Shown here piece after piece: positions 10,222-48,500 of a DNA stretch of 63,341 nucleotides. This DNA comes from a virus. The translations under genes were made by a program, and so were the position numbers. Each line of letters starts with the position of its first letter. Within the stretch, counting starts at the first letter, position 1. Below the pieces are notes generated by a model that worked only from the letters and a program-made list of their open reading frames with translations, was not told the DNA's origin and did no database searches. The stretch covers positions 1-63,341 of IMG/VR virus record IMGVR_UViG_3300042691_038058; one strand, 5' to 3'.

Positions 10222-10854
10222 ATGGAAAAAATATCATATCTACATAACGGACAATGGGTACTCGAGAAAGGATCTAGACAGAAGAAAATTCCGTTTAACC
10301 CAGATAAGGATATATCTAACAAAGATAGATATAGTGTGCAAGGATGGGTGACTGGTGATGTTACTAGTAGTGTAGATAAGCAGGATATTCCTCGCATGAG
10401 CGGCAACATGAGAGCTAGAGCTCTTAATAAATTAATGAGACTAGCTCAATATAGAAAAAATCCAATAACTAACAAACTAGAGTTTTTGCTACATAGAGGC
10501 GACAATAGTGCTGAAAATTATGCTAGGCGCAATAAGGGCGATCACTATCATAACGATGAAATGACAAGTTGGTCATGGACTCCAGGTATTGCTGCAGGTT
10601 TTTCACACAATGCTAGTTTCGGAGCAGATGCTAAGCCAGGCGACTTCTCGAGCGCGTGGGTTCCTGAAGATGACATACATAGTATGCCTAAGATGTATGG
10701 ACACAGAGGTGGACTGCATGAGCCTGATGGGGCTGCTCTTGGGCCAAACGAGCCAGACGAAGACTGGGGATCTAGCGCCAAAGAACAGCAGCAGTCTGCA
10801 TACGGAGAGGATGAGATTCTGGTTGCACCAGGAAAGTTTAAAATCCACAAATAA
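10222..10854 (+). CDS. Mono-ADP-ribosyltransferase, R-S-E class, 210 aa
   Basis: The protein shows the three signatures of arginine-type ADP-ribosyltransferases in order: an arginine in LLHRG (R92), a Ser-Thr-Ser-like strand in TSWSWTPGIAAGF (S116-T120), and an ExE catalytic pair in GEDEILVAPGKFKI (E196, E198). The enzyme transfers ADP-ribose from NAD to protein; in T4 the Alt and Mod enzymes modify host RNA polymerase and translation factors. It lies 59 bases before a phage sigma factor gene, which fits control of host transcription. The N-terminus MEKISYLHNGQWVLEK is shared in pattern with two other proteins here and may be a targeting tag. No clear ribosome binding site is seen. The family call is firm; the target is inferred. 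Confidence 0.85.
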   Translation: MEKISYLHNGQWVLEKGSRQKKIPFNPDKDISNKDRYSVQGWVTGDVTSSVDKQDIPRMSGNMRARALNKLMRLAQYRKNPITNKLEFLLHRGDNSAENYARRNKGDHYHNDEMTSWSWTPGIAAGFSHNASFGADAKPGDFSSAWVPEDDIHSMPKMYGHRGGLHEPDGAALGPNEPDEDWGSSAKEQQQSAYGEDEILVAPGKFKIHK

Positions 10855-10901: not shown

Positions 10902-10907
10902 TATAAT
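10902..10907 (+). promoter_or_regulatory. TATAAT box six bases before the sigma gene
   Basis: TATAAT is followed by CATTTC and the ATG. No -35 match is present at 16-18 bases upstream (CAAGCA at 17). The spacing would put the transcript start at or next to the A of the ATG, giving a leaderless message. Confidence 0.55.
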
Positions 10908-10913
10908 CATTTC

Positions 10914-11603
10914 ATGAGCAATAGACTAAAGATTTATTTAGAGCAGATGGGTGCTATACCGATGCTGACTCTTAAAGAGGAACTCTACTTTGCTAAGCTC
11001 GCTTTTGAAGGCGATGAGGCAGCCAAGCAGCGATTAGTAGAGTCAAATCTGCGACTAGTAGTCTCTATAGCTAAGAAATATACCTATAGCGGCATGGATC
11101 TGCTAGATCTTATACAAGAGGGAAATCTTGGCCTCATGAAGGCCGTAGAGAAATTTGAGTATAAGCGTGGCTATAGATTTAGCACTTATGCAACATGGTG
11201 GATACGTCAGTCTATTACTAGAGCCATAGCAGACACTGGAAGAACTGTTCGACTGCCAGTGCATTTAGTAGAGAGTGTAAATAAAATATTTCAGATCATG
11301 AGTCAGCATGTTCGTCTATATGGCAAAGAACCTAATCTAGAAGAACTTAGTAAACTTATGAACATGAAAGAAGATAAGTTAAAAGATCTGCTAGAGATAG
11401 CTAAGATACCACTATCACTAGACAGTAGTCCTAATTCAGAAGAAGACAGAAGTCTACTAGATAGACTGCATAAGTCTAGCATAGAATTCAGTGCCGACAA
11501 GCTAGATACAGAAGATATAGCACGTAACCTAAAGATAATACTGAAAACTCTTTCACCGCGAGAAGAGAAGATAATGCGTATAAAGTTTGGTATCTCAGAC
11601 TAG
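10914..11603 (+). CDS. Sigma-70-family factor truncated before region 4.2, 229 aa
   Basis: Region 1.2 is present ([16 protein letters not shown], residues 9-23), as are region 2 (38-107, with [22 protein letters not shown] and the -10-reading, DNA-melting [15 protein letters not shown] at 87-101), region 3 (about 114-188) and region 4.1 ([15 protein letters not shown], 213-227). The protein then stops, so the region 4.2 helix-turn-helix that reads -35 boxes is absent. No continuation is found in other frames. It should direct host core polymerase to promoters defined by the -10 box, as T4 gp55 does. No ribosome binding site precedes the ATG. Several structural genes here have TATAAT without a -35. 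Confidence 0.9.
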
Positions 11604-11611: not shown

Positions 11612-11617
11612 TAAAAT
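11612..11617 (+). promoter_or_regulatory. TAAAAT box seven bases before the 44-aa gene
   Basis: TGATAAAAT is followed by ATAAGCT and the ATG, a spacing that again predicts a leaderless transcript. No -35 match lies upstream. Confidence 0.4.
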
Positions 11618-11624: not shown

Positions 11625-11759
11625 ATGGAAAAAGTTACCTACTTATATAATGGTCAGTGGAGCTTAGCGAAGACTGAACAGCCTTTTCAAGCGGGTGAGA
11701 TTCATGAGCTTGAAGTTCATCCACATATCGATCATCTATATAAAGTAAAAACTAAATAA
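11625..11759 (+). CDS. NGQW miniprotein, 44 aa
   Basis: The first 16 residues, MEKVTYLYNGQWSLAK, match the start of the ADP-ribosyltransferase at 10 of 16 positions, including NGQW at 9-12. The rest is acidic and His-rich (ELEVHPHIDHLYKVKTK). It appears to be a free-standing version of the tag. No ribosome binding site is present. The shared sequence with a known enzyme family member in the same operon is the main support. Confidence 0.65.
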   Translation: MEKVTYLYNGQWSLAKTEQPFQAGEIHELEVHPHIDHLYKVKTK

Positions 11760-11774: not shown

Positions 11775-12569
11775 ATGTCGCCACTAGATAAACCAAATCA
11801 GCAGTATCCTAAAACAGCCAAGTCATATCCATCTATGATGCCTGATCTTATAACTGATATAAGCATCAGAGGCGAATCCTGGGATCAGATAGTTCAAAAC
11901 AGAGGCATACGCTTTGTGCATCGCATGGCAGCGCCATGCCCTAACATGAAAAGTCTAGACGATAACAACCACGATCCAGATTGTGCATTTTGCGACAATA
12001 GTCAGATAATATATATACAAGAAAAAGAGATATTTGGTGTTTTTACTAATAATTCACTAGAAAAACTATTTGAAGTCCAAGGAGTCTGGGAAATAGGGAC
12101 AGCGGTGATAACGTTCCCTACCGAGTATCCAGATGGCAATCAGGCTGACTTCAATATATTTGATAAGTTATTGTGCCCTGATTTTCAGATACGTCTAACT
12201 GACCTGAGACAATATGACGGAACAAGTGGAGCAACCAGCGTCAAGTATCCAATAATAAGAGTTTTCGATATATCGTCCGTAGTTAATGGCGCACTTAAGA
12301 AGTATGTGCAAGATGTTGATTTTACTATAGTTAATGGCAATATAGTCTGGGTCGCAGGAAAAGCTCCTAGCTATGATAGCATAGAAGATATAGGTGAAGT
12401 GCTATCTATAACATATTCCGCGAATCCTGTGTATAATGTAATGCAGAACATGCATGAGATACGCGCCACGCAGCAGATGGTCAATGGTCAAAAAGTAGCT
12501 AAACGATTGCCTCAGCATATTATGGTTAAGCGAGATTTTTTATTTAAGCCGGATGGTAAGGAGCTCTAG
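11775..12569 (+). CDS. Putative neck or head-tail connector protein with Cys cluster, 264 aa
   Basis: AGAGG lies six bases before the ATG. Residues about 54-75 contain CPNMKS, DPDC and FCDN, a four-Cys arrangement like a small zinc site seen in some phage head-completion proteins. The rest is strand-rich with VQDVDFTIVNGNIVW, typical of virion proteins. Its place at the head of the tail gene block supports a neck or connector role. Function is inferred mainly from position. Confidence 0.55.
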   Translation: MSPLDKPNQQYPKTAKSYPSMMPDLITDISIRGESWDQIVQNRGIRFVHRMAAPCPNMKSLDDNNHDPDCAFCDNSQIIYIQEKEIFGVFTNNSLEKLFEVQGVWEIGTAVITFPTEYPDGNQADFNIFDKLLCPDFQIRLTDLRQYDGTSGATSVKYPIIRVFDISSVVNGALKKYVQDVDFTIVNGNIVWVAGKAPSYDSIEDIGEVLSITYSANPVYNVMQNMHEIRATQQMVNGQKVAKRLPQHIMVKRDFLFKPDGKEL

Positions 12570-12582
12570 CCAGCATTTAAGA

Positions 12583-12588
12583 TATAAT
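12583..12588 (+). promoter_or_regulatory. TATAAT box before the Nudix fusion gene
   Basis: AAGATATAATGTAAGG lies 27 bases before the start codon. There is no -35 match at 17 bases (GGAGCT). Confidence 0.45.
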
Positions 12589-12615
12589 GTAAGGGCAAGA
12601 GATATTTGGAGTACT

Positions 12616-14127
12616 ATGCCTCAAGCAGCCAGTAAAAAACAATATAGATTTATGATGCAGATCCTTCATGGGAAAGGCAAGTGCACTCAGGCTCGTGGAT
12701 GTCCACCTAAAAGTGTAGCCGCAAAATACTCTTCAAATTCAGATGCGCCAGAAAGTAAAAACAAAAATAGAGGCGGCGATTGGACTAGCGAGCACCATGA
12801 AAAACATGGCAAGGGCGAAAAAACAGAGCGCAAATCTAAAAAGAAACTTAAAAAATCATTTGAGCAATATTATAGAGGACAGGGGGTAGGTCTTGTTGTT
12901 ACTGACGATAGTGGGCATATTCTTGTTGGCATTGGAAACGATGGTAAATGGCAAACGCCAGGAGGGCACGTTGATCCCGGTGAAGATTTTGTCCAAGCAG
13001 CAAAAAGAGAACTTAAAGAAGAGACAGGACTAGACGCTGGAGATCTAAATGAAATTGGTCATGCTAAGATAAACGGTAATGACTCTAAAGTATTTCTAGT
13101 AGATTCTTTTGACGGAAAACCAAAAGATACACATGAACTTAAAGATCTGCAGTTTGCACCTCTTCATAGTCTATTAGACTGGGAACTGCGGGATTGCTGC
13201 AGAGTAGGGCTAGAAATGTATGCGCACTCTGCCTTAAAAAAATCCAGCAAACTACAAGATCTAGTTATATTAGAGAAACTAAATAAAAATATACTTCGTG
13301 GTGATAATCAGCGAACTGCTACATTTGACATAAGTCATGGCGAAGCACTGAAGCTCATAGGTAATGGCTGCTTCAGAATGCTTAGCACTGCCGTTAAAGA
13401 TATGAGTGATGAGGATTTTAGAGATGTCAAGATAGATTCCTATACTATAAGCCTAAGAAAACACATGAATGATGTGTATTCTGGTCGTATAAGTGATGGC
13501 CATAAAGTAATACATCAATTTACTAATAAGTCACTGCCTCAGCTCTGTGCAGATGTCATGTCTGTATTCGAGTGGTACTCAGATGAAGATGAAAAAGTAT
13601 TCGACATACTAGACGATGAAAAACTTTCAGATGACGCTATATATGGCGGACTAGAGCAACTTGCAGATAATTATCGAAAACACAATCTTGCCAATATCTA
13701 CACTGAAGTAGAAAATATGCGAAAAGAGATACGCAATGGCGTTGCGGTAGACCTTCAGCAAGTAGAGTCTAAGATAATGGCGCTATTTGATAAGCTAGAG
13801 AATTCGCTACTAACTGTCGTAGATAAGCACAACAAACTAAACCAAGATGCTGGCAAAGAAATAGAAGATCTAGAGTCTAGGTTGTTAGAACTGCAAGAGA
13901 AAGTAGATGAACTTTCTAAAAAACCCTCTAAAGTAGATGTCGTACAATCTAAAAAGATAGATCCAAAAAAGGTCTACGAAAATGAATACATGTACTTACC
14001 TAGACCAAAAATAGAAATAGATAATAAAGGTCAAATATCTATAACATTTGACAAAGAATGGACAGATCTAGAAAAATCTAACTTCCTATGTGACATGAAA
14101 GCCAGAATAATTAAAAAGGCACGCTAA
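12616..14127 (+). CDS. Nudix hydrolase domain fused to a structural-type coiled-coil protein, 503 aa
   Basis: The start at 12616 has GGAG at four-base spacing; an in-frame start at 12553 would overlap the upstream gene. The N-terminus (AASKKQYRFMMQILHG, then RGCPPKSVAAKYS) resembles basic segments found in other phage virion-linked proteins. A complete Nudix box follows at residues 117-139 (GGHVDPGE with seven residues, then RELKEETGL), the magnesium-binding motif that hydrolyses nucleoside diphosphate-X compounds. Residues about 220-503 are helical with a coiled coil (DLESRLLELQEKVDELSKK). A Nudix enzyme inside the morphogenesis block is unusual and may mean the enzyme is carried in the virion. 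Confidence 0.8.
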   Translation: MPQAASKKQYRFMMQILHGKGKCTQARGCPPKSVAAKYSSNSDAPESKNKNRGGDWTSEHHEKHGKGEKTERKSKKKLKKSFEQYYRGQGVGLVVTDDSGHILVGIGNDGKWQTPGGHVDPGEDFVQAAKRELKEETGLDAGDLNEIGHAKINGNDSKVFLVDSFDGKPKDTHELKDLQFAPLHSLLDWELRDCCRVGLEMYAHSALKKSSKLQDLVILEKLNKNILRGDNQRTATFDISHGEALKLIGNGCFRMLSTAVKDMSDEDFRDVKIDSYTISLRKHMNDVYSGRISDGHKVIHQFTNKSLPQLCADVMSVFEWYSDEDEKVFDILDDEKLSDDAIYGGLEQLADNYRKHNLANIYTEVENMRKEIRNGVAVDLQQVESKIMALFDKLENSLLTVVDKHNKLNQDAGKEIEDLESRLLELQEKVDELSKKPSKVDVVQSKKIDPKKVYENEYMYLPRPKIEIDNKGQISITFDKEWTDLEKSNFLCDMKARIIKKAR

Positions 14128-15798: not shown

Positions 15799-15804
15799 TA
15801 TAAT
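15799..15804 (+). promoter_or_regulatory. TATAAT box before the sheath gene
   Basis: CATGTTATAATGATT, with an extended TG, lies 33 bases before the ATG. There is no -35 match at 17 bases (AGTATT). Confidence 0.55.
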
Positions 15805-15837: not shown

Positions 15838-18018
15838 ATGGCGATTAATGTATCCTTCAATGGCGCAACTATTTATAGGCCTGGTGCTTATTCTAAGTTG
15901 ACAATAGATTTAGGTGGTAATTTTCCGCTTGGTATCGTAGGTCTAGTGGCAATATTTGGTGAATCTACTAGAGGTAAACCTGGTAGTGAAGAAGCCGATA
16001 TGTCTAGAAATTTTTTCTTACCTAATCAGATTTCTGAAGTAAGACAAAAATACGGATCTGGTCCGATCGTAGATGCGATGAACTTTCTATTTTCTCCAGC
16101 TTCTGATGGTGCTGTGCCTAATGGTGCACAGGCTGTTTATATTTATAAAACTAATTCGTCCACTAGAGCCACTATGTCATTGCCAAACTCATTCGGCACT
16201 GTTCGCTCTCTTGAGCACGGAATAGGTGGAAATACTATTACTTTCTCTGCAGAAGAAACGGCTGAAGTTGCGCCAATGTCTGAATCATCTGCGGATTTTG
16301 ACGAGTCACTTATTGCTGCTGGATCATTCGATATCTATGTTAACGGTGTTAAGAGTTCTGTAAGTGTTGCAGGCGGTTATGCCGACAACGCTGCGCTAGC
16401 TGCTGACGCTGCTACGTGGTCTGTTGCTGACGTATCATTTACTGTTAGCGGCGTTGATGGCGCATCTTCTCTATCTATAGAAATTGATGCAGATCCATTA
16501 GCGAGCCGAAATGGTTCTGGTAAAGCACTAGAACTTAAAGATGGCACTGGTGCACCTCTTGCTGCAATGAATATTGCCGAGGGTCTTGAAGTATCATCTC
16601 AAGAATCAAAAATGACACTTACTCTTAAGCAAACAAGAGACTTACTAGAAGAGCAAGAACTTATTGGCGGTAACGTTGTTATGCAGGTTGGTTTTAGCGG
16701 AGCTAGTGCAACTGCTACAGTAGAAGTAACGTCTAGTTCAATTATTCTAGATGCTGGCTCAGCGATCTCAATAAGCAAAGAGTCTTATCCAACCCTACTT
16801 CAACTAGTTAACGCGATAAATCTTAATCCAGGCTGGAAAGCTTCTCTTACTAGCACGCTATATAACTCATTATCACCTAGCGTACTTGATGAAGTTACTA
16901 TTGGTGCGAAATGTTCAAATTCATTAACTATCAAGCCTGCTCGTATCAAAAAAGATGCGTCTGAAGTGGCAAGCTTTTTTAAAGATTCATCTATTGCAGA
17001 TATCGATGATCAATCTGCTGTTGGTCTAGTTGATGCGATGAGTGAAGCTGGACTTTCTGGTGGAGCTCTTGGAGCAACAACTACGTCTTCTATAACTGCA
17101 GCTTTAGCGGCATTCGAAGAGATCAGAGTTAGCGCTGTGGTTCCTCTATTTTCTAGAGATGCAATCCTAGCCTCAGATACTCCTTCTAGTGATATTGCAG
17201 ATAACACAACAGATTCCTCGTCTAGCTACACAATACTTGGTATACATCAGGCAGTTAAGACTCACTGTAACTTAATGAGTACTACAAAAAATAGAAGTGA
17301 GAGACAGGCTTATCTTTCTTATAAAAATAGCTTTGATGCATGTAGAGAGAGATCTGGTCTACTTGCTGATCCGCGTATACAGCTATGTATTCAGGACACT
17401 AAGAATACTGATTCTCAGGGTAACATAAAGTGGTTTCAGCCTTGGGCACAATCATGTATGCTTGCTGGAGCTCGTTGCGGTTCGCCAATAGGAACTCCTC
17501 TAACGTTTAAATTCTTTAATGTTAGCGGAATTAGACACACCTCTCAGTCGATGTCTACCCCTGAAGAAGATATCGTACAAGACTTTAATCCTAATGTTAA
17601 ATACAACGAAGCTATACAAGGCGGAATAACTTTCTTTGAGCAGCCTCAGTCTGGTGGTATCAGATGTCTTCTTGATAATACCACTTATCAAAAAGACGGA
17701 AACTGGGTATACAACAGAGCAAATGTTATGTATGCTGCAGACGTGTTAAGTTTTGATTTTAGAAATCAACTTGAAAACGTATTTGTTGGTAAAAAGAATA
17801 CCATATCTGTATCTGAAGTTAGATCTATTGCCTCATCGCTATTAAGCACATATCTTGCACAAGGAATAACAGTATCTACTACTGCCGCACCAAATGGCTA
17901 TAAAGATCTATCTGTTAAGATAACTGGCAATACGATCAACATAAGTTTAGTAGCTGTTTTAGTTGAAGGCATTGATTTCGTACTTAATGATATAACTATC
18001 ACAAGAGCTGAAGCTTAA
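15838..18018 (+). CDS. Contractile tail sheath protein, 726 aa
   Basis: AGGAG lies five bases before the ATG. The N-terminus has the typical sheath opening IYRPGAYSK and a strand that leads into GIVGLVAIFGESTRG. The C-terminal 200 residues match the conserved sheath core: PWAQSCMLAGARC, GITFFEQPQSGG, the NVMYAADVLSFDFRNQL handshake region and the final strand with GIDFVLNDITI. A variable insert at about residues 110-400 decorates the surface. The sheath contracts to drive the tube through the host envelope. Its own upstream TATAAT box suits high late expression. Confidence 0.92.
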   Translation: MAINVSFNGATIYRPGAYSKLTIDLGGNFPLGIVGLVAIFGESTRGKPGSEEADMSRNFFLPNQISEVRQKYGSGPIVDAMNFLFSPASDGAVPNGAQAVYIYKTNSSTRATMSLPNSFGTVRSLEHGIGGNTITFSAEETAEVAPMSESSADFDESLIAAGSFDIYVNGVKSSVSVAGGYADNAALAADAATWSVADVSFTVSGVDGASSLSIEIDADPLASRNGSGKALELKDGTGAPLAAMNIAEGLEVSSQESKMTLTLKQTRDLLEEQELIGGNVVMQVGFSGASATATVEVTSSSIILDAGSAISISKESYPTLLQLVNAINLNPGWKASLTSTLYNSLSPSVLDEVTIGAKCSNSLTIKPARIKKDASEVASFFKDSSIADIDDQSAVGLVDAMSEAGLSGGALGATTTSSITAALAAFEEIRVSAVVPLFSRDAILASDTPSSDIADNTTDSSSSYTILGIHQAVKTHCNLMSTTKNRSERQAYLSYKNSFDACRERSGLLADPRIQLCIQDTKNTDSQGNIKWFQPWAQSCMLAGARCGSPIGTPLTFKFFNVSGIRHTSQSMSTPEEDIVQDFNPNVKYNEAIQGGITFFEQPQSGGIRCLLDNTTYQKDGNWVYNRANVMYAADVLSFDFRNQLENVFVGKKNTISVSEVRSIASSLLSTYLAQGITVSTTAAPNGYKDLSVKITGNTINISLVAVLVEGIDFVLNDITITRAEA

Positions 18019-18023: not shown

Positions 18024-18029
18024 TATAAT
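18024..18029 (+). promoter_or_regulatory. TATAAT box before the EF-hand gene
   Basis: TTAGTTATAATCTT lies 17 bases before the ATG, just after the sheath stop. There is no -35 match (ACAAGA at 17). Confidence 0.5.
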
Positions 18030-18046: not shown

Positions 18047-18763
18047 ATGAAAAAATTACTAGAACTTGAGAAAAAACTTTTGGAAGCCAGGGAAGCGCTG
18101 GAAAAGCAAGCAGCGATGCTAAGCGATGGTTCAGATACTATGAGTGTTGGCTCTTCTATGGTAAACACTGCAAAATCTGAAGACAGTAAATCTTCACATA
18201 AAGGCAAGCGACATAAACTAGATGTCGATGGCGATGGAGAAATTGAAGCTGAAGATCTTGCGGCTCTTCGTCAAAAAAAGAAGAAGTCTAAAGAGCAGTT
18301 AGCTAAATTTGGATCACAGGGTGCACCTTTGGGGTCTAATCTTGGTTCTTCTATCACTGCTGGTATCTCTGGCGGTGGTGTAAATGTCAAGAAGAAAGAA
18401 GATAAGCATCCGGACGAGAAAGAAGATAAGAAGCTTATAGCTGAAGCGCTTGATCGTCACAACGAAAAGAAACATGGCGAAGATAAAGACGAAGATTCTG
18501 CTAAAAAAGAAATGAAGCTTAAGAAGAGCGAAGAGGTCCTAATTTCTTTTCCAAATGGCCAATGGGCTCTTACAAAGTCTAAAAAAGATTCTGAAAAATC
18601 AAATACGGACGACGGTTCCATTTTGTCAGAGCCTCAACACAGAGGGGCTAGTGGCAAAGGAAGAATCCGCATGGATTCAATTCGTGCAAAAACTGGAAAT
18701 CCAGAAGATATGATGATACGAGCAGAAGAAAAGGCTGAAAAAGCAAAAAGTAAAAAACCGTAA
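18047..18763 (+). CDS. EF-hand protein with NGQW motif, 238 aa
   Basis: The protein has an N-terminal coiled helix (residues 1-24), then a canonical 12-residue EF-hand loop DVDGDGEIEAED (59-70, with acidic residues at positions 1, 3, 5 and 12) that should bind calcium. It continues as a long lysine/glutamate-rich, probably disordered tail. Residues 163-177 (EVLISFPNGQWALTK) repeat the NGQW pattern of the ADP-ribosyltransferase and the 44-aa miniprotein. It lies between sheath and tube genes and is followed by a strong terminator. It may be a packaged or tail-associated accessory protein; this is an inference. Confidence 0.75.
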   Translation: MKKLLELEKKLLEAREALEKQAAMLSDGSDTMSVGSSMVNTAKSEDSKSSHKGKRHKLDVDGDGEIEAEDLAALRQKKKKSKEQLAKFGSQGAPLGSNLGSSITAGISGGGVNVKKKEDKHPDEKEDKKLIAEALDRHNEKKHGEDKDEDSAKKEMKLKKSEEVLISFPNGQWALTKSKKDSEKSNTDDGSILSEPQHRGASGKGRIRMDSIRAKTGNPEDMMIRAEEKAEKAKSKKP

Positions 18764-18841: not shown

Positions 18842-18847
18842 TATAAT
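18842..18847 (+). promoter_or_regulatory. TATAAT box before the first tube gene
   Basis: AGCTGATATAATCTATAAG, with an extended TG, follows the terminator by 18 bases and lies 65 bases before the ATG. There is no clear -35 at 17 bases (TTTTTG is within the terminator tract). Confidence 0.55.
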
Positions 18848-18911
18848 CTATAAGTTTACATAAGTAAGCACAAATTCAAGGTACGTGGAACCGAACCACA
18901 GGGAGTTTTTT

Positions 18912-19478
18912 ATGGCAGGACAAGTTCCTTCTTTTATTACCGGCGCAAACGCCAAAATTAAGTTAGGCAGTATGACTATGGCTTATGCTCAAGATGTCAG
19001 CTACTCAGTTGATGTAGCTACTATTGGCGTAGAGACAATCGGTCGATTTGAAGTAGTTACAAATGAGCCTATATCTTATTATGTTAGCGGCACTCTTAGT
19101 GTAATCAGATATACTAAAGCAGCTACTCAGATGACTGGAAGAACTAGCATACCAGGTTCATCTAATAATGGTAACTCTATCAATGAATGGCAAGATACTA
19201 CTACAAATTCTGTAGTTGGCGATCAATTTGATCCGGCTAAAATAATATCTTCTAAAACTTTTGATCTAGAAATATTTTCTAAACTAGCCTCAGATAATCC
19301 TGTTGGTGGACCGGTAGAATCTATCGTGAAAATACGCGATTGTCGTTTTACTAGAAAATCAGGTTCAGTAACTAAACGTGGTCTTATAGTAGATCAGTTT
19401 AGCTTCACTGCTGTACTCATGAATCACGATGATGATACCGCGGCAGGAACTTCTGGAGACATTGATCTCAACGGATAA
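18912..19478 (+). CDS. Tail tube protein paralogue 1, 188 aa
   Basis: The start at 18912 follows GGGAG at six-base spacing; an in-frame GTG at 18885 lies in the leader. The protein has the tube layout of an N-terminal FITGANAKIKLG strand, MAYAQDVSYSVDV, a VSGTLSVIRYTK strand and a C-terminal IRDCRFTRKSGSV followed by VDQFSFTAV. It forms the inner tube through which DNA passes. It is the first of four tandem paralogues. Confidence 0.85.
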   Translation: MAGQVPSFITGANAKIKLGSMTMAYAQDVSYSVDVATIGVETIGRFEVVTNEPISYYVSGTLSVIRYTKAATQMTGRTSIPGSSNNGNSINEWQDTTTNSVVGDQFDPAKIISSKTFDLEIFSKLASDNPVGGPVESIVKIRDCRFTRKSGSVTKRGLIVDQFSFTAVLMNHDDDTAAGTSGDIDLNG

Positions 19479-21213: not shown

Positions 21214-21219
21214 TATAAT
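21214..21219 (+). promoter_or_regulatory. TATAAT box before the chaperone gene
   Basis: TTTGCGCATATTTGCGTATAATAAA contains a 10-base direct repeat (TTTGCGYATA) whose second copy runs into the TATAAT. It is 28 bases before the ATG, with no -35 (TGCTGA at 17). The repeat could bind a regulator. Confidence 0.5.
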
Positions 21220-21247: not shown

Positions 21248-21625
21248 ATGGAACTTCCAAAGAATGAAAAATCTTTTGACGTAAGTTTAATAGGCGAGAC
21301 AACTGGGAAAAAATACGAGGGCACTTTTACTGTAAAGTGCGTATTGAACATTTCAGATAAAAGACGCCTAGAGATAGAGCGATCTAGATTATCAGCAGAT
21401 ACGGTAAATCCGTCTGTTAGTCTATCTGCAATTTCTGGTGTTGTGGCAAATCTTAGAATAAGAGTAGTTCAGGGACCAGAATGGTTCAAGCAATCTATAG
21501 ATAATCTTGATTTTCTAGATGAAGATATTTTGTATGAAGTATTCTCAAAATGTATGGAAAAAAGCGAAGAATGGACCTCTGAAGTCAAAAAGAAGTCTGT
21601 TGGGGAACCTCTAGCGGGAAACTGA
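21248..21625 (+). CDS. Tail assembly chaperone, G-type short product, 125 aa
   Basis: AAGGAG lies five bases before the ATG. The position after the tube and before the tape measure, the size and the mixed strand and helix layout are those of gpG-type chaperones, which coat the tape measure protein during tail assembly. The gene ends at a GGGAAAC slippery heptamer directly followed by TGA, so a fraction of ribosomes should shift by -1 and make a longer G-T fusion. Confidence 0.85.
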   Translation: MELPKNEKSFDVSLIGETTGKKYEGTFTVKCVLNISDKRRLEIERSRLSADTVNPSVSLSAISGVVANLRIRVVQGPEWFKQSIDNLDFLDEDILYEVFSKCMEKSEEWTSEVKKKSVGEPLAGN

Positions 21626-29272: not shown

Positions 29273-29278
29273 TATAAT
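29273..29278 (+). promoter_or_regulatory. TATAAT box before the 279-aa baseplate gene
   Basis: TCAGTATATAATATTATTCGGAG lies 16 bases before the ATG, in one of the few gaps within the baseplate block. There is no -35 match at 17 bases. Confidence 0.5.
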
Positions 29279-29294: not shown

Positions 29295-30134
29295 ATGGCC
29301 GAAAATAAGACAGTATCTGAAAGATATGCGACGGTATCCAGTAACTGGTACAAGCAGTTTCCCTATACTTTTAGGTGGCGAAAAACAGATAGTGAGTCTA
29401 GCTATTTTAACCTACCCATATCGCCTCGCAACATTCAGATAAATACTCATTTTGCTACAGCAGTAGTGCCCACTATGTATGGAACTATCGAGGAGCATTC
29501 GGAGCAGCGCTATTTTGACATAAATATATCTGGCACAACGGGTATGGCTCCGCTCTATCATAAAAAAGAAGCCAAAGCTGGATCAACTAGACCAGCTGAG
29601 GGTCGAAGCGGTTTTACTATAGATATAAATGCAAATCCAGCTTCATCTTTTTTTAGAAAAACGCGCAGCCTTATAGACAAGATACAGCAGCAATATAGCG
29701 AAGTAAAAGGTGCGTCGGAAAGTGTTGCTGTTAGCGCAATAAAAAATGACGAATCTGGCTACGTAGCTTTTCATAATTTTTACAAGTTTCTACTAGAGTA
29801 CAAGGACAGCGTTGCTCTGGGTAAAAAACCAAAGACCGGTCACCCACTATCCTTCTTTAACTACAAAGATAATAATGCCTACGACGTTAGCATTACCAGT
29901 TTCTCGATGACCAGAGACGCCTCAAGTCCACTATTATATAACTATAGCATATCTATGAGAGCCTATAACCTTAGATCAATTGATGATGCTATAAAACCTG
30001 TTTCGCTAGACCTAGGTCGCTTCGGACTAGATGGGCTGAACACAACAGAATTTTCAAAGATATCTAATAAAGTAAGAGCTGCAAAAAATACTGCTTACGG
30101 TATAGTTTCAGCCTTTAAATCTATAGGTTTATAA
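29295..30134 (+). CDS. Putative baseplate protein, 279 aa
   Basis: CGGAG lies five bases before the ATG. YFNLPISPRNIQINTHFAT, TMYGTIEEHSEQRYFDINISG and YNYSISMRAYNL resemble proteins that sit next to the hub in contractile tails. The middle is helical and lysine-rich. The last base of its stop is the A of the next ATG. The specific role is not clear. Confidence 0.55.
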   Translation: MAENKTVSERYATVSSNWYKQFPYTFRWRKTDSESSYFNLPISPRNIQINTHFATAVVPTMYGTIEEHSEQRYFDINISGTTGMAPLYHKKEAKAGSTRPAEGRSGFTIDINANPASSFFRKTRSLIDKIQQQYSEVKGASESVAVSAIKNDESGYVAFHNFYKFLLEYKDSVALGKKPKTGHPLSFFNYKDNNAYDVSITSFSMTRDASSPLLYNYSISMRAYNLRSIDDAIKPVSLDLGRFGLDGLNTTEFSKISNKVRAAKNTAYGIVSAFKSIGL

Positions 30135-31740: not shown

Positions 31741-34700
31741 ATGGCTAACGTAGAGATTAAAAGCTATAATCAAATTCTGGGAGCAATGGTAAGAAAAATC
31801 ATTGCCGATACTGCGATAAATGACGTCAATACCGGATCCGCGCTGCTAACTCTACTTGAAGCGGCTGCCTCTAATGACTTTGAAAACAATGTTGCCATAC
31901 TGAATGTTCTAGAGCTAATGAACATAGACGCCGTTAGAAACAACGATCTAGACTCTTATGGCTCTAATTATGGCCTTACTAGAAACGTCGCGGCTAGAGC
32001 TTCAGGTCAAATCAAGATTACCGATACAAATATCACAAAGAGAAGCACCAGATTATACTCAATAAAGCCTGCCCCTATAAGAGGAGCTACTACTCTGTAC
32101 GTGGCAAATGCATCTGAGTGGAATCTCACTGGAAATCTCTATATTGGTAGAGGTACTCAGAATTTTGAAGGTCCAATTCCATATACATCCATTACAGACA
32201 ATGGTAGTTTTTATACTATAACTCTAGGAGCCTCGCTTCAGAAAGATCATCTTCTTACTGACAGCGTTATAGATGGCCAAGGGACAGCTGATAGGCAGAT
32301 ACCAGCTAATACGCTAGTAAGAATACCTGCAAATAACGTTAGTCCAGATATCAGCTATGTAACGCTAAGAAATGCGGTAATTCCAGCTGGTGAAACATTT
32401 GTGGACTCAGTTCCCGTTGTTGCAGTAAACGCTGGCACATCTGGAAATGCTGGGATAAACACCATAACAAGATTTTCGACGCCGCCATTTTTGGGCGCTG
32501 CTGTAACAAATACTATTGCTTTTACTAATGGCAGAGATGCAGAATCAGATGAATCTTTTAGAGATAGAATAAAAGCATATTCGAACTCTTTATCGAGAGG
32601 TACTCGTCAAGCTATATTATCAGCTATATACGGTGTTTCTGAGGAAACAGATGGCAAGCAGGTTGAATCTGCCAATATAACAGAGCCAGCATCAATAGCA
32701 GACCCAAGCATTATCTATATAGATGATGGTCAAGGTTTTCAACCAAGCTATAAAGGACAGTCTGTAGATCTATTGTTGGCCTCAGCTAATGGCAGCGAAG
32801 AATTTTTACAGCTCGCTAACTATCCTCTACCTAGAGCTCAGGTAGTAAATCTTGCAGAAGCGCCATATCTATTAGCAGACTCTATGACTCTTAAAGTTGA
32901 AGTAGATGGACTAGAGGAATCTATCGTTCTTTATGATTCTGATTTTAGCAATATTTCTTCTGTGAGTATCTATGATCTAGCTACAACAATAAACACTAAA
33001 TCAGTCAGCTTTAAGTGTAGATTGACAGAGAATTCGTCTAGACTTCTACTGTATCCAACAGATCATACAGCTGAGACAATTAAAGTCACAGGAGATGGTG
33101 GGAGATTCGATGCTAACTCATCGCTAAAATTTCCATTAAATGAATTTTCAAATATAAAACTATATAAAAATAATAAACTGCTAAGAGAAAAAGAGCTGTC
33201 TGCTTCTGTAGCGACCGTAGAATTTTCTACATGGGGAATATCTACTGGCGGTAACTTAATAATTTCTGTGGACGATACTCCGCCTCAAGATCGTAGTTTT
33301 ACACTATTAGATTTTGGCGCCAGTAGCTTTTTTTCTGTAACTCTTCAAGACTGGGTTCGTGTATTTAACTATAAGTTTGCAGGATTGACTGCTACGGCAA
33401 CTGCTGCTGGAAGGCTTGTTGTTACATCAAATAAAGGTGGCGAAGAGTCTTCTATTAAGATAGTTGGCGGATCATATCTAGAAAACATGTTTAGCTCTCA
33501 GACACTAGAGTCTAGTGGTCAAAATTCTGATTTTATCCTTAATAGGCAGAATGGTAATCTACAAATTAAAGTAGATATAGAGGCTGGAGATACTATCACA
33601 GCCGGATCAAGTGACTCAAAGGGATTCATAGTATCCAGCGCTGCATCTAACGGAATATTTAATTTATCTAACGATTCTAGTAATAGACCCGCAGAGATGG
33701 TCATTGTAGCAGATGCTGCAAGAGTTGTTCCAAGATCGCTTAGTCTACCAATTGCGTCTACTATAACTCTACTAGATCAAGGCAACAGCATTATGAGAAT
33801 AATGTCTAGTGCCATATCTTCGTTTAGCAATGTACAAGCTGGTGACTATATCTATATAGTTAGCAGAGGCGAAACTAGAGCAAATCCACTAATTGATCCG
33901 CCTGGATCAGGCAGCTGGGTAGATGACGCTTCTAGCGGTCTATTTAAGGTACATGCAAAAGGCGAACATTTATATGCTGGAGTAGACAGCTACCTAGATG
34001 TAAAAAATGTAAACATGGTTTCTGGCGGATCTTATGCAATATTGGATGCGCTTGATATTCAGGCATTCTATTCCGATAAGTATCCGCAGATATGGAGAGC
34101 TTCTTCGCTGTCAGCTCCAGTCTCTGCTAGCATAAATGAAGTAGTTGCATCTATTAACAGTTTAATTAAAGGCGTAGAAGCAAAAACTTTTAGAACAAGC
34201 TATATAAAAATTACTTCAGCTACTGAAACAAGTGGAAGCATTGCTATACCTGTTTCTGTAGGTGCAGCATCTAGAGTTTTTAATACTGCACAAGGCACTC
34301 AGCTTGGAACTGAGTCGCATATAGCGAATGTTATTCCAAGCAAAAGTTACTTAACAATGTTTAAACGATCTGAGCCAGAATCAGATAATGTTTGGCTAGA
34401 TAGACACGTTTATAGCGAAATAAGAGGTTCACTTACTGCAAACTCACAGCCTAGCATTGACGGCTCTGGTTTTTATTCTGAAACATTAACTGACACTGCT
34501 ACGGATTTTTTAAATGATATAAGCTATGACGATTTCATAGAAATAACAAGTGGTCAAAATAAGGGCCAATCAAGAAATATTAGGTCCATATTAAGCTCAA
34601 GTCAAATAGGCACAAGAAACTCTACGCCTAGAACTCTAATGGATTACACTGCTGGAGATGAGTATAGTGCAGTTAAAGGTCTAGAACTTTCATCCGAAGA

Positions 34701-37700
34701 TAATATCGTAATGATACTAGACAATGATCCTATAGCTAAAACCATAGATATGCCACTCTCAAGAACTGGTCAGATCAATAGCGGTTCGCAGCTTTCAAAT
34801 TTCATACCTACTAGCATAGCATTCTCTGCAGATGACATAGATAACGAGTCTGGTATTGATTTCGGTAAAGCAGATATCTGGGGCACTTTGCCATCTCAGG
34901 GGAGCACTAACTTTAACGACTACAATATATGGTTTAGAGCTAGAAACTGGTATTATGATAATGGCGCAGCCATGATAATAAGAGCTAGCGACTATGGTCC
35001 AATAGGCGAACAATATACTTTTGGAATCGACTACCCTAGTACTGCCGATAGCGAGAGCACGCTTGTGCAATCTACAATTCCAGGCGTAACTTCTTTTAGA
35101 TATGTATTTGGTTCAAACAGCGCAATAAATACAGACATCTCTCCAGGAGACCAGTTCACACTGACAGACTTAGGCTCTAGCATACTTAGGTTAAAATTTC
35201 CTACTACTGCTAGTGTTAATTCTATAAATATAGGTGATGTCATATCTATAGGTGAAACAAGCGGATTTTCAACAGCAAATTGCGGAACTTTCAGCATTCT
35301 TCAAAAGGATGATATCGCTAAAACACTAGATTTTTATAGCATAGACGGAGTAGCAACAGCAGTAGGTTCAGCTTCAGTTCAAGAGATAGTATGCGTTGCA
35401 GACTCTAGTGGAAGTCTAAATGGAAGCTATTTTATAGTTAGCGCAGCAAATGGCGATACGGTTAAATTCTGGTATGACAATAACAACAGCGGTACACTAG
35501 AGCCTGCTTCAATAGCTACAACTAGAAGCTGGGAGATCGACATCCTTAACGATGACACAGATATAGATGTCGCCACAAAAACTGCCATCATAATGGCAGG
35601 AGACCCAGCCTTTGCTTCTGTGACAAATGCCTCTGGAACTTCTGCCACCATATCTATAGTAGATGCAGTCAATGGCCCAGTTACTGCAGGCCAAGACGGA
35701 GTAGTGCCTACAGGTTTTACATTTTTACTAGATATAGCTGGAGTTGCTGACAGCTATGAAACTATAAATCTAGTAAATAAGCTAGAAATTTTCTCTATAA
35801 AACAGAATACTATTGCAGACATAGTTGCTAAAATAAATACAAATCCTATGCTTGAAGCAGTAGAGCACACATCTGGCACATTGATTAAGGCCACTAGAGA
35901 TATAACTGGCGTCGCTATCAATGAAGTAGCCTACTATCATAATCCTAATCCTTCTAGCAATTATCATGATTTTATATCTTTCTGGGACTCAAAGAACTGG
36001 ATATCAAGTTTTCAAAATGCTAATCCTAATTTTCAACTTAAAAAACCACTAGTTCTAGTAGGCGTAACGCCACTATACGAGCTAGATACTGCAATAAATC
36101 TAGATGGAACTACTGGTGAAAAATTTAAACTTATACCATCAACTCTAGATAATCTAGCACATCATATGACACATAGAGCGCTTTCACAGCTAAATATAGT
36201 GTCTAGAGTTTCTGTTGCCAATGACAGCAGTTCAATACAGATAAAATCACAGCAGCTTGGATCTAGTGGAGCTATAGAAATAGTGGGTGGTAGTGCAAAT
36301 AACGCAAAATTTAAATTAATAGGAAGCTCTCAGATAGTTGAAGATTCTGATAATTTCTTGCAGTTTAAAATACCAGCTTCGCCAAATACACTTCAGCCAG
36401 GACACCATGTTCAACTTGAAAATGACTATGGGGTTGAGCGCATAAGCAGACTAGGTCAAAATGACAGTATAGATGTTGTTAAGAAGAATGACAGCACTTG
36501 CGAGTACATGTATAATTCTAAGAATACTAATTTTAATCAGTATACTAAGATAAATATAGTAGATGCTCACTCGCTAGATCCAATTAGCTATCCTACTCCT
36601 GGAATTGTCTGGCGATGGACTCATGATGATTCAGGTTCATATCTCATATTGTCAGATACAGACGAAGGATCCGTAGACTACAATCCGCAAATGCGAAATG
36701 CAATAGGTGCATTAACATCAAATAGCGAAATTCATCAAGAAGTAACTCAGGCTGGAGACTCTGATGACAATCTAGTTTTCAGAGTAACTTCTTCTGGAGT
36801 ACCTGATCATGCAGATTATCTTAGATTTATAAACAGTGCTGATTCTAGCTGGATCGCATGGTTTTCTGTAGACGGTAATCTAACGCCTCCTGTTATGCTG
36901 ATAGGCGGAACCCCATCTGTGCAGACAGTTGGTTGTCAGCCAGATGTAGCAAACTCACTTAATGCTTCTTACTTTATATTACAAACTCCAAACGGAGATA
37001 CTGTTAAATTCTGGTATGACAATAATAACGCCGGAGCAACAGAGCCAGCAGTAGGTACTACTACTAGGTCGGTAGAGATTAACATAGACACAGATGACGA
37101 CGTAAATGAAGTAGCCGTTAAAACAGCAGCAGCAATAGACAGCGATCTAGCTTTTGCTAGCGCGGCAGTGACACCTGGAGGAATTATTACCGGGTCTCCT
37201 ACTGTTCATGATATCGATTGTGAGCCAGACATAGCTAATTCACTAGATGGTTCTTACTTTACACTTAATGCTGGAAACGGCGACGTGGTTAAATTCTGGT
37301 ATGATAACAATGATGCTGGCACAACTGAGCCTGGTTTAGGCATACCAGGATCACCGTCTATACAGCTTATCGAATGTCAGCCAGATGTATCTAATTCACT
37401 GGATACTTCTTATTTTGTACTAGAAGCTGGTAACGGAGATACAGTTAAATTCTGGTATGACAATAATAATGCCGGAGCAGCTGAACCAGCAGTAGGTACT
37501 ACTACTAGATCGCTAGAGATTAATATAGACACGAACGATGATGTGAATCAGGTTGCTGCTAAAACAGCTAATGCGATCGATAATGATTCAGCTTTTGCTA
37601 GTGCAATAGTAACACCAGGCGTAATAATGCCAGGATCTGGGGTGCCTTCTATACAAAGAATTCAGCTGCAACCAGATATCTCCAACTCACTTAATGGTTC

Positions 37701-40700
37701 TTATTTTGTACTAGAAGCTGGTAACGGAGATACTGTTAAATTCTGGTATGACAATAATAACAGCGGAACAGCTGAGCCTGCAGTAGGAACCACTACTAGG
37801 TCAGTAGAGATCAATTCCATATCTACAAATGATGATTCTGATGCAGTAGCTACACATACAGCTACAGCAATATCATCTGATATAGCTTTTGCAAGTGTGC
37901 TAATAACGCCTGAAATTTCTAATACAGGGTTCGTTGCGCAACTTAATTCCTCTAATCAATCTTTAGCAGATGCTTTTGGTAACTCAGTAGCTATCAGCGG
38001 AGACTACGCAGTGGTAGGAGCACCTCAAGATGACGGCTCTACTGACACTATCACTACTGCTGGTGAAGCTTATATTTTTAAAAGAAATCAAGGTGGAGCA
38101 AACAACTGGGGTTTAATAAAGACACTTAATTCACCCAATGAGGACACAGATGACGCATTCGGCTATTCAGTCGCTATAGATGGTGACTATATAGTAGTAG
38201 GTGCATATGGCGATGAAGGTTCTACTGGTACTATTGGTACTGGTGAAGCCTATGTCTATAAAAAAGATCAGGGTGGAGCCGATAACTGGGGCTTAATTAA
38301 GACACTTAATTCCGACAATGAAGATGATGGAGACACATTTGGTAACTCAGTAGCTATAGACGGTAATTATATAGTAGTAGGGGCTAGAACAGATCATGGT
38401 ACTGCTGATGCTATTGGTAGTGCTGGTGAAGCCTATGTCTACAAAAAAGATCAGGGTGGTGTTGATAACTGGGGCTTAATTAAGATACTTAATTCCGACA
38501 ATGAAGATACTGGAGATCAATTTGGTTGGTCAGTAGCTATTAGTGGTGATTACATAGCAGTAGGGGCATTCGTTGATGACGGATCCATAGACGCTATTAT
38601 TGACGCTGGTGAAGTTTATGTCTTCAAAAAAGATCAGGGTGGTGTTGATAACTGGGGCTTAATTAAGATACTTAATTCCGACAATGAAGATACTGCAGAT
38701 CAATTTGGTTATTCAGTAGCTATTAGTGGTGACTATATAGTAGTAGGTGCATATGGCGATGACGGATCTACTGATGCTATAAGTAGCGCTGGTGAAGCCT
38801 ATGTATTTTATAAAGATCAAGGCGGAACTGACAATTGGGGTTTAATTAAGACGCTTAATTCTTCCAATGAAGATGCAAATGATTATTTTGGCTGGTCAGT
38901 AGCTATTAGCGGTAACTATATAGTAGTAGGTGCACCTTTCGATAGAGGTATTGCTGATGGCGTTAGTAGCGCTGGTGAGGCTTACTTATTCTATAAAAAT
39001 CAAGGCGGGACTGATAACTGGGGTTTCTTAAAACAACTTAACTCACCTAATGAGAACGGAGATAGATTTGGAAGTCAAGTGGCTGTAGACGGCGACAATA
39101 TAGTGGTTGGAGCATCTTCTGATGACGGCTCTACTGAAACTTTAAATGACGCTGGTGAAGCATATATATATAGTATCAATCTTGCAACTCCAACTCCAGC
39201 GTCTATAGATTTAGCAAATGCTGACTCTGGACCGGTAGCGATTGGCACTGACGGTACTCCTGCTACTAATTTTACATTTAGTGTGGTTTTGACTGGAACA
39301 CCTGACGGTCTAAGTCCTGCGACAATAACAGTGACTAATTCTGCTGATGGTCCAGTTAATGCTGGAGTTGACGGCACTACACCTACGAATTTTATTTTGT
39401 CAATAGATACTATTGGCGTAGCGGGTGTTCCTGCTGTTCCTTCCGATAGATCAGTAGAGATTAATGTAGATACAGATGACGATGTTCTAGCAGTAGCTAC
39501 TAAAACAGCTGATGCGATCGATAATGATTCAGCTTTTGCTAGTGCAACAGTGACAACCACGACGGTTCCTGGCAATATCGCTATACAGACAATAGGCTGT
39601 CAACCAGACGTCTCTAACTCACTTAATGGTTCTTATTTTGTACTAGAAGCTGGTAACGGAGATACTGTTAAATTCTGGTATGACAACAATAACAGCGGAA
39701 CAGTTGAACCTGCGGTAGGAACCACTACTAGGTCGCGAGAGATTAATATAAGCACCAATGATGATTTTGAAGAAGTGGCTACTAAGACGGCGAATATTAT
39801 TGACAATGATTCAGCTTTTGCTAGCGCAATAGTAACAACTACAACTGCACCAGTAATAACCCCTGGCTCTTATATTAAAGCAGCAGCTACTCCTAGCGGT
39901 TACAATTGTATATATACAAAAATATCAGGCGATTACATGTTCGCTGTCGGATCTAATGGCCTGCTATCATCAGTTTTCATACATAAGAAAAATCAAGGTG
40001 GATTAAATAACTGGGGACTAATCAAGACGCTGCCTTTTAGCGGATTCAATAGTATTATTATTGATGCAGATGGAGACTATCTAGTCGTCGGTGCTTTTGA
40101 GGACGGCGGTTCTACTAATGCTATCAGTGCTGCTGGTGAAGCCTACGTCTACAAAAAAGATCAGGGCGGAATTGATAACTGGGGACTTACTGCTACACTT
40201 AATTCACCAGATGAAGACTTGTACGATCGATTTGGTACCTATGTTGCAATAAGCGGAAACTATATCGCGGTACATGCTGCAGGTGACGATGGTTTTACTG
40301 ATACAGTCAATGATGCTGGCGAAGTATATATATTTAAGAAAGATACGGGACTAGAGAGCTGGAGCTTAATCAAGAGTTTTACTCCTGGATTTGAGGTTGC
40401 TGGCAACAATAGTGGCGCGCCTTTACATTTAAGTGGTGATTATTTAGTATTAAAGCCATCTAACTTATCTTCAATTATTAATTCAACTATTATTGTGTAT
40501 AAGAAAGACCAGGGCGGAGTTGATAACTGGGGATTAGTCAAAACTATCACTGCTCCAAATTTTTCTACTTGGCCACCAAATGGTAATTTTGGCTATTCAG
40601 TAAATATTAGTGGCGACTATATCATAGCACTTGAAACTCCATATGAATATCTGCATATTTTTAAGAAAAATTACGGCGGAACTGAAAATTGGGGCTTGAT

Positions 40701-45536: not shown

Positions 45537-45542
45537 TATAAT
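45537..45542 (+). promoter_or_regulatory. TATAAT box before the first fibre gene
   Basis: TCCTGGTATAATTTAAG, with an extended TG, lies 33 bases before the ATG. There is no -35 match (ATCCTG at 17). Confidence 0.55.
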
Positions 45543-45575: not shown

Positions 45576-48500
45576 ATGGCCGTATTGGGAAGAGTTCTGA
45601 TTGGTTCGGCAGAACGTCTTGATTTACAAGATCTTTTAAGCGTAGACTCTTATACTCAGGGTGACTTCAAATACCTAATGAAGTCATTCGTGGGATCAGA
45701 TCGTCCGTATATTCTTAAAGGATTCGAGGTTGTAGATCCTAGTAATTCTATAGGATCTCAGACTGTGGCTATCAATATAGCTAACTCAGTAGTCTACTAT
45801 CCAGAATCAAGTGCTGGTCCATTTTTTTATGGCCTAGAAGAAGGCGATCCTAACGCGGCGCCGCTAGTTCCAGAACTTAGAAAAAATGCTACAAATTATG
45901 TTTATCTTGTATTGACAACTTTTGAATCAGCAAAAGACACACGCGCTTTCTGGGATCCAGATAAAGAAGGCGGAGTTGGTGGCGAATTTACGCAAGACAT
46001 AAACACTGAATCTGTACTTACAGCAGATGTGAATGTTTCTGCCGCATCATTTCCCGACAATGTAATTCCTATATGTAAAATAAAAGTCGGTACAAATTTC
46101 ATTGAATCTATAGAAGACTGCCGCGACATGATGTTTAGGTTAGGTACCGGTGGTCTTGGTCCAAACCCGCTAGCAAGATATGAATTTAGAGAAGAGCCTC
46201 TTGCAGCATATAAAAGACTAGAGCCAAATACAACAATATCTAATAAGTCTGATCCAAACTCTTTTAGAGGTGGCGATAAAAATATCCATACGCTAAAAGA
46301 ATGGATGGACGTAGTCATGACAAGACTACTAGAATTAAGCGGTAGTACATATTGGTATGAGGACACATCCACATACAGCTTGATAAACGTATTTAAAGAT
46401 GCTCTAGCTACTTCAATAAGATCTAAAGGAACCTGGGAAAATTCTGACAGTACACCTGGTCAACTTAGTTGGACTGAAGACATTGTTCTTCAATCTATGA
46501 CTGATCTTAAAGATATAATCATACGATCTGGCAGCAAGACACTATTAAATAATCAGGTAATGTTTGTACAGCATGAGAGAGATCTGCAGGCAAACAGCGG
46601 TACTGTGCCACTAGACTGGTTTAATGGGTTGCCATATGTTAACGGAGATCTTGGCTACTTTGAAAATCTATCTAAGGGTGACTGGATAAAGAGATCTGGC
46701 GACGGAGATAATCTATATCTAAGAGTAGAAGAATTTTATGATTCTATAAGTCTAGGTGGAGGAACTACTACGCCATCTCAGGCTAAATCTATCAGACTAA
46801 GTGCAGCATACTCTGGAGCAAGCGGCTCTTCTCAGGGCATATATACTAAGGGTCAATTTTTAGCCTCTGAAGTTCAAGTTGCTGATAGAACAGACCCTGT
46901 TCTTTATGAGGCAGGCGGAAATCTTTGTTGGTTAGCATCGAGATCAGACAGAGTACTCAATGTATCCAATTTGTCTTGCACTCAATTACTAATAGATATT
47001 ACAGATCATGACGGAGAGCGAGCTAAATGTACAAAGATAGCACACGGCTTATCTGACAAACAGAGAATAAAAATACTAGCAACTAGTAATTTTAATGGTG
47101 AATATCAAGTAGAGGTTGAAAGCAGCGATATATTTTTCATATCAAAAACTGGTGGACCTTTTTTAGACGAGCTATCCAGACCTGCTTATTACGCTACAGC
47201 AACAACTTCTGCTAACTCTACTGCATATGGTTTTTCACTTGAATCTGCTAATCATGGCCTAGATGTAGACGGCAACGTATTCATAGCAGGCAGCGGTAAC
47301 TTCAATGGCGAGTTCAAGGTGTTTCCTAAAACTGCCACTCAGTTCACGTTTCCTATAGCTGGTCCAATAGTTGCTGAAAATTACACCTCTGGTTTTCCAA
47401 AGGCTACGTCTATTGAGATGTATGTTAGAGCAGATCTTGGTCCTACTAAAATTGAGCAAGGCGAAAGTAAAGAGATAGGTAAAGTAGATTCTCAAAATAT
47501 AATGTCATTTATAGGCATGGATAATTCAGCGATGATGAAACCTGTCTATGCTACAGAACTAAACTACAATACACTAGATGGTTTTGTAAATTATAATTCA
47601 AGTTCAGCAGATAGTCTAACGGAAAGAGCTTCAAAATTAACTGCCATGATGGCAGATAGAATTCAAGATAGAAATCTAACTTTTGAACTTCAGAATGTTC
47701 ATGCTATAGTTAGTAATCCAAATGGATCTTATCAAGATATCGCTGTTTTTGCAAAAACAGGCTATACACCTAAGCTTGTAGTTATTCAGCCATCTACTGG
47801 CTATAAGACAGAATTGACGCTAACAAGCACAGTTAGTCTACAGGCAAATCAAACGGCCTATTTCTCTATAAACAGAAATAGCAATAGTGCAATAGGCAGT
47901 CTAGCATCACTAATAGTCGTAGACAATGATCAGTTGCCGTTAAGTGAGAACATATTTGTATTCGCCATAAGAGGAAGCACCGGCTCTGTAATGCTCTGGG
48001 ATAAGACTCCTGTAAGAGAATATGAATCAATAATAGCAGATGTAGTAGCCGAAGTTACTGAAATAACGCTTCCAGCAGCCTCCAACATAACCAGCAATCA
48101 ATACTTCCTGATAAACTCAGGCCTTGACTTAAACAAATACTATGTCTGGTTTAATAAAGATAGCACAGGTGTAAATCCACTAGTAATAGGCAGAATAGGC
48201 ATAACTGTAAATATATCTAGCGCTGATACAGCTGCAACTGTTGCACAAAAAACAGCCAATGCTATAGTAGCTACTGCGTCATTAGATTTTAGCGTCATAA
48301 ATAATTTTAATGGCACCATAACTGTGACTAATACACTTGCTGGCTTCTGTACAGACGCTGAAAACTTTAACGTAGGCAGTGGTTTTGGTGTCTTTATAGA
48401 GATAGATGGATCTGGCTCAGCGCTGCATACAGTTTCTGACGGTGACTTGCTTGAGGCAGCCATTAAAAAACTAGATCAAAAAATCTATGAGGTCATGCTC

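Follow-up and report, generated by a model that had tools for sequence, protein, structure and literature searches.

A conserved phage RpoD-type sigma factor ending before region 4.2 and the TATAAT promoters without a -35 signal in its phage group

Sigma factor gene and TATAAT boxes of the window

In this work, a stretch of viral DNA of 63,341 nucleotides (the window) was analysed, in which a gene for an RpoD-type sigma factor lies among boxes of the TATAAT type. The window is a stretch of the longer record G001 (165,836 bases), with 99.997% identity over positions 1-34280 and 99.7% over positions 34311-61909. The alignment breaks at 34281-34310, in the region of a 3881-aa ORF (31741-43386) that corresponds to two ORFs of 850 and 3009 aa in G001 (rc 87660-99274); the phage tail region in which this ORF lies is, like others, rich in internal repeats. 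No Rfam match was obtained for the window. The features are as follows.

10902-10907, + strand: -10 box GGTATAAT (promoter CGGTATAAT), 6 bases ahead of the sigma ATG; putative leaderless promoter
10914-11603, + strand: sigma factor gene, 229 aa, with regions 1.2, 2, 3 and 4.1 and without 4.2
11612-11617, + strand: TGATAAAAT box upstream of the small ORF 11625-11759; TGn
12583-12588, + strand: TATAAT within the longest reading of ORF 12553-14127, upstream of the ATG at 12617
15799-15804, + strand: TGTTATAAT upstream of the tail sheath gene 15838-18018; TGn
18024-18029, + strand: TATAAT upstream of ORF 18047-18763
18842-18847, + strand: TGATATAAT upstream of ORF 18885-19478; TGn
21214-21219, + strand: TATAAT upstream of ORF 21248-21625
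29273-29278, + strand: TATAAT upstream of the structural ORF 29295-30134
45537-45542, + strand: TGGTATAAT upstream of ORF 45576-49262; TGn; another TATAAT at 45553
56963-56968, + strand: GGTATAAT upstream of ORF 57016-59697

The 229-aa protein matched the Pfam models of regions 1.2, 2 and 3, and region 4 was unmatched. Its residues 36-227 were aligned by phmmer with residues 374-565 of E. coli sigma70 with zero gaps (residue i corresponding to i+338), and its stop falls at the equivalent of sigma70 residue 567, ahead of the 4.2 helix-turn-helix, with the residues SD after KFGI. When a region-4 HMM was run on six-frame stop-to-stop segments of the window, the frame of the sigma ORF was matched (E 3e-4), and the runner-up (13170-13283, E 0.24) lies away from the sigma gene. 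Region 4.2 was absent from all three frames read through past the sigma stop, and these frames and the HMM scan together rule out a frameshift or second frame restoring it. An earlier note on this DNA had described a sigma factor without region 4.2 that ends two residues past KFGI and had named a second frame restoring it as an observation that would count against this; the gapless alignment bears out the description, and no such frame follows the stop.

The ten boxes that the same note had listed, four with TG and none with a -35 element, were all re-read in the window. TGn precedes those at 15799, 18842, 45537 and 11612, and at a spacing of 16-18 the best -35 match of each of the ten reached between 0 and 3 of 6 positions. 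Counted as a plain hexamer, TATAAT shows no enrichment over the whole window, with 35 occurrences on the + strand and 28 on the - strand (about 45 expected per strand). It lies at most 60 bases upstream of 10 of 33 late start codons, a hand-made list in which two are alternative starts of one gene, compared with 3.7% of random positions (binomial p 2e-7). An N-terminal stretch NGQW(Q/S/T/V)L, seen by eye, is common to several otherwise different proteins, encoded at 10222-10854 and 11625-11759 of the window and at rc 24687, 45923, 124979, 125781 and 126539 of G001, a pattern that would suit a sorting or packaging tag.

Conservation and origin of the truncated sigma factor

Related sigma factors were located at 92 distinct loci by two scans of viral contigs, the second limited to its best 80 of 499. 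Region 4.2 is kept at 77 of them, which include many near-copies of one another, and 14 are truncated. The remaining locus (L123) encodes an RpoD-type phage sigma with an unrelated tail of ~26 residues in place of region 4.2 and was not counted among the truncated ones. In a bacterial MAG (G068:C159), another sigma ends early because its contig stops there; it was likewise left uncounted. The 14 truncated loci are twelve contigs of a main clade plus L092 and L095; the main-clade contigs represent ten distinct sequences, three 100%-identical contigs and the window being counted as one.

The ten main-clade phages, 57-100% identical, share the stop residue of the sigma and its genomic place. In all ten the gene lies immediately upstream of the structural cassette, and the next widely shared gene is a homologue of window ORF 11775-12569. 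The C-termini read KFGISD, KFAISD, KFGLFD, KFCISN, KFGLSD or KFGLAD, and the shared stop residue rules out an assembly error or a contig end as the cause of the truncation in the clade. That the gene is decayed or misassembled, and functionless, is very improbable: the absent C-terminal part is the single point in favour of such a reading, against which stand an open frame and a common end with a mean column identity of 76% across five diverged copies, one and the same locus in ten phages, and a conserved promoter layout of its own. Of the interpretation in the earlier note, the absence of region 4.2 from a sigma70-type protein is supported, and this absence is a stable, conserved trait across the clade.

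All 12 truncated proteins have regions 1.2, 2 and 3 by Pfam, which places them in the RpoD type, and Sigma70_r4 matches three of them weakly (best E 0.0023), the match of L008 falling in region 3. The end of region 4.1, LS.REE.....K, is invariant in all 12, and so the 4.1 stub looks to be under selection. Moreover, the equivalents of E. coli W433, W434, Q437, T440, R441, H455 and E458 are invariant in all 12 truncated sigmas; in E. coli, Q437 and T440 face position -12, and H455 and E458 read TGn (PMC2613000, in excerpt).

The sigmas of L092 and L095 end in KYGIK, one residue short of the main-clade stop. Their phages have backbone genes in common with G001, including a DNA helicase and a GroEL gene (PHROG), and the sigma sits at a different place, between these two genes. 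With the backbone shared and the sigma sitting elsewhere, it seems that an RpoD-type sigma entered this backbone on two or more occasions, and neither version has 4.2. On a tree built from 58 non-redundant sequences, the truncated state requires two changes, and two are also forced by the well-supported branches; very long branches on some rows make placements uncertain.

The TATAAT promoter class in the phage group

In the intergenic DNA of the late strand of G001 (the strand being assigned as late from gene content), TATAAT occurs 33 times versus 9.7 expected from dinucleotides, and GTATAAT 20 times versus 1.5. The opposite strand shows an excess of GTATAAT as well (8 versus 1.1 expected in G001 and 15 versus 1.5 in G044), so the box is not strictly late. 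Five sigma-carrying records were pooled, giving 47 sites at most 60 bases from a start codon. TGn was found at 15 of these sites (2.4 expected) and a G directly ahead of the box at 26 (9.5 expected); the seventh base past the box is an A at 27 of the 47, in several cases the A of ATG. The information in the -35 window was 0.001 bits, and at least four of the six TTGACA positions were matched at a spacing of 16-18 by 3 of the 47 sites, compared with 6-8 at five control spacings. The structural-gene promoters can therefore be described, as the earlier note did, as a -10 box without a -35 signal.

The box lies exactly 6 bases ahead of the start codon at 7 of 58 late-strand sites in the sigma-carrying records and at 17 of 88 in the others, and distances of 5 and 7 do not occur. 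Over five genomes, this distance was found for 22 of 105 TATAAT boxes close to late-strand starts and for 4 of 420 occurrences of 19 permuted hexamers; G047 alone has it at 1 of 21. The spacing suggests leaderless mRNAs whose +1 base would be the A of the start codon. As read by eye, the sigma gene itself has its box 6 bases before the ATG in nine of the ten main-clade phages and 7 bases before it in L007, the box being TATAAC in four of them. The sigma genes of L092 and L095 have TAGAAT 6 bases before the ATG, and L095 also has TATAAT 1 base before it (both by eye).

A Pfam Sigma70_r4 search of G001 returned, at E 5.2e-4 and below the family cut-off, a small protein outside the window through which relatives of the phage could be collected.

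G001 rc 152919-153269: 116-aa Cys-rich protein, between the portal and major head protein genes (PHROG)

Four of these relatives, G043, G044, G046 and G047, show the same promoter class, with GTATAAT on the late strand 11, 16, 12 and 10 times, respectively (0.9, 1.5, 0.7 and 1.5 expected). Of their 77 sites, 29 have TGn (4.3 expected), and there is no -35 information. In both sets TGn before TATAAT is seen as an enrichment, the majority of sites being without it (32/47 and 48/77). The 176-kb record G044 and G001 are colinear, with protein identities mostly of 30-70%; the G044 position that matches the sigma locus holds no sigma. A sigma profile found no clear relative in 23 virus records with the small protein (seven longer than 100 kb); the one weak match (E 0.016) was a sigma2-like domain in a 499-aa protein of G044. 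The same search was negative in 18 fragment records with the small protein, which are short (up to 51 kb), and Pfam Sigma70_r2 in the relatives searched was confined to the G044 domain and another within a G047 frame of 652 aa. Since four relatives in which no sigma relative was found carry matching promoters, the promoter class belongs to the phage group and not to the truncated sigma, and the dedicated sigma/promoter pair claimed in the earlier note is not supported. The host sigma or another factor could read the TATAAT promoters.

Sigma2-like domains lie elsewhere in these genomes. Beyond the window, at rc 36246-36725, G001 encodes another protein that resembles sigma region 2 (159 aa; PF04542, E 1.9e-6) and ends in a proline-rich tail, and whose gene is itself preceded by TGGTATAAT-6-ATG. 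A related domain forms the C-terminal part of the 499-aa protein of G044 (114234-115733, - strand), and that of the 652-aa frame of G047 lies at 149177-149287 (+ strand).

On the early strand, TTGACA occurs 7 times versus 2.0 expected, and it was rejected as part of -35/-10 pairs, coming largely from a repeat. Upstream of early-strand genes in G001 rc 22-64 kb, a stretch that includes the left end of the window, there is a repeated element ACAGAYTCGATA, several times after TTGACACTGCTACGCC, which may serve as a different type of early promoter or operator. A tRNA-like sequence with an apparent CAT anticodon was seen by eye in an early intergenic region at about rc 53860-53950. As to the host, three genome contigs with the small protein belong to Bacteroidota MAGs and look like binned phage contigs. 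A Bacteroidota host was not adopted, because roughly every second late-strand gene in G001 has a Shine-Dalgarno-like box (52/99, control 8) and the promoters are of the TATAAT type. Among isolates, the tail sheath is matched best by Myxococcus phage Mx1 (31%).

Possible function of the truncated sigma factor

We hypothesize that the protein is an accessory phage RpoD-type sigma that has lost region 4.2 and is specific for -10/extended -10 promoters; this is the most likely reading, to which we give about one half of the probability. The truncated sigma would bind the host core polymerase via region 2 and the kept 3-4.1 linker, region 2.4 would read TATAAT, and region 3.0 would read TGn where it is present. 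Such a holoenzyme would open promoters without a -35 box and would favour phage promoters over host -35/-10 promoters, because -35-dependent promoters perform poorly without 4.2, whereas TGn/-10 promoters still work. Region 4.2 was removable at the TGn/-10 promoter lambda Pre* and not at -35/-10 promoters (Kumar et al. 1993, via PMC2613000, in excerpt). The conserved truncation, the conserved residues for -10 and TGn reading and the -10 promoters without a -35 are read from sequence; core binding, activity, timing and selectivity are what we infer. Against the accessory sigma as a required factor stand the matching promoters of relatives in which no such sigma was found, and about two thirds of the sites (32/47) are without TGn, a kind of -10 that performs poorly when 4.2 is missing (mutant work cited in PMC2613000, in excerpt). 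The protein without 4.2 may need help, since a holoenzyme lacking sigma4 shows poor de novo initiation and pauses (PMC7948647, in excerpt).

The 116-aa protein leads to the main rival, at about one quarter, namely a sigma in two parts. The truncated protein would supply regions 1.2-4.1, and the candidate small protein would act as sigma4 in trans, on the beta flap and upstream DNA. The small protein has four cysteines (positions 12, 24, 52 and 64), invariant in 50 aligned relatives and from which a metal site was inferred, and a C-terminal, 4.2-like helix-turn-helix. Sigma70_r4 is matched by 12 of 15 of its relatives at E up to 1 (best 1.7e-6), hhalign aligned it with 29 phage sigma region-4 segments (probability 89%, E 2.1e-6, 39 columns, covering the helix-turn-helix), and two sigma-factor PHROGs are weakly matched by 18 and 14 of 50 small proteins (best 0.0013 and 0.0022). 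Both genes are present in G001. Main-clade sigma contigs come from 12 samples, and in six of these the small protein is present too, in one case on the same contig and in one only as a 53% relative, compared with 0 of 74 samples with other sigmas; the viral-contig scan for the small protein kept 80 of the 82 relatives it found. By tetranucleotide make-up, the true contig pairing was the best of 120 assignments for G001 and four samples, a result helped by G001, where the pair is one record. Across five pairs, one of which is G001 itself, distances correlate (r 0.74), a value reached in 6 of 120 permutations when the true pairing is counted. The two differently derived sigmas of one backbone both lack 4.2, which 77 of the 92 examined loci keep; a sigma4-less holoenzyme initiates poorly (PMC7948647, in excerpt), most boxes have no compensating TGn, and SigO-RsoA is a precedent for a split sigma (PMC8103513, in excerpt). 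The small protein is, however, kept by relatives in which no such sigma was found (the 23 virus records, seven of them >100 kb) and so has a role without the truncated sigma. Its wide presence is partly circular, all records except G001 having been found through it. As read from the alignments, it does not keep the equivalents of R584 and Q589. Its predicted model is of middling confidence (pLDDT 75, pTM 0.44), Foldseek gave nothing significant (best E 1.2), and VIA-align against sigma region 4 gave Z 2.0-2.4, below unrelated rows at 2.7-3.6, with the region 4 rows sitting among other helix-turn-helix proteins. In an unbiased six-frame search with the region-4 HMM, the small protein was the top match of three genomes (G044, G046 and G047), whereas it took third place in G043 and fourth place in G001, all with weak E-values (0.002 to 3.9). 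Neither the L092 and L095 contigs (36.9 and 12.4 kb) nor their samples contain it. Taken as a whole, the picture of a truncated sigma acting with a 4.2-like Cys-rich protein on -35-less, leaderless promoters, a split reached by two sigmas of one backbone, is a tentative one with slightly less than the weight of the two-part sigma itself.

Still less probable, at rather long odds, is that the host sigma reads the -10 promoters and the truncated sigma is mainly a competitor drawing core from host -35/-10 promoters. The promoter class of the relatives in which no such sigma was found agrees with such a role, as does the ability of perfect TGnTATAAT promoters to dispense with a -35 (PMC2613000, in excerpt). 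The -10 and TGn reading residues are nevertheless all invariant, which would be needless for a mere competitor.

T4 gp55 is a late sigma that uses a -10-like element only and has a separate small partner, gp33. The two are named together in PMC11598898 (in excerpt). The parallel drawn with gp55 in the earlier note stands as a functional likeness at most, since phmmer with T4 gp55 and gp33 (E up to 10, ORFs of at least 40 aa) found no homologue of either in G001 or G044, and the suggested gp33-like coactivator did not turn up in them. A gp45-type clamp (PF02916) was found in none of seven records, with a model that matches only 1 of 14 control genomes. The sigma gp36 of phiEco32 is without region-4 homology and serves single-element promoters with starts 6-8 bases downstream (PMC8948821, in excerpt). 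The window sigma resembles it by description in lacking region 4.2 and in its one-element promoters; the phiEco32 element is tAATGTAtA, in contrast to the canonical TATAAT here, often with TGn, and unlike gp36 the window sigma is recognisably of the RpoD type and stops after 4.1. Region-4-less phage sigmas with one-element promoters are thus already known from phiEco32 gp36 and T4 gp55. A laboratory-made E. coli sigma70 minus 4.2 works at an extended -10 promoter (PMC2613000, in excerpt), whereas the phage form is natural and conserved. The candidate split also resembles SigO-RsoA of B. subtilis, where sigma domains are spread over two proteins (PMC8103513, in excerpt); there, SigO carries sigma4 and RsoA sigma2, and here the division would be between 1.2-4.1 and possibly 4.2. 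In the literature searched, judged by title and abstract opening, no phage RpoD-type sigma cut after 4.1 is described, nor was a description found of such a sigma occurring twice in a single backbone with -35-less TATAAT and putative leaderless genes. The small protein had no convincing match in isolate phages (E up to 0.01 for the G001 member and up to 10 for a divergent one) or plasmids.

The truncated sigma would be a natural counterpart of the classic laboratory construct, sigma70 without 4.2, and hence a natural test of what 4.2 does beyond -35 reading. Ahead of many of its genes, the phage group apparently relies on -10 promoters that lack a -35 signal, about one third of them with TGn, and the transcription start is readable from putative leaderless genes. 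Should the small protein turn out to be the partner, it would illustrate how a sigma factor can be divided in two.
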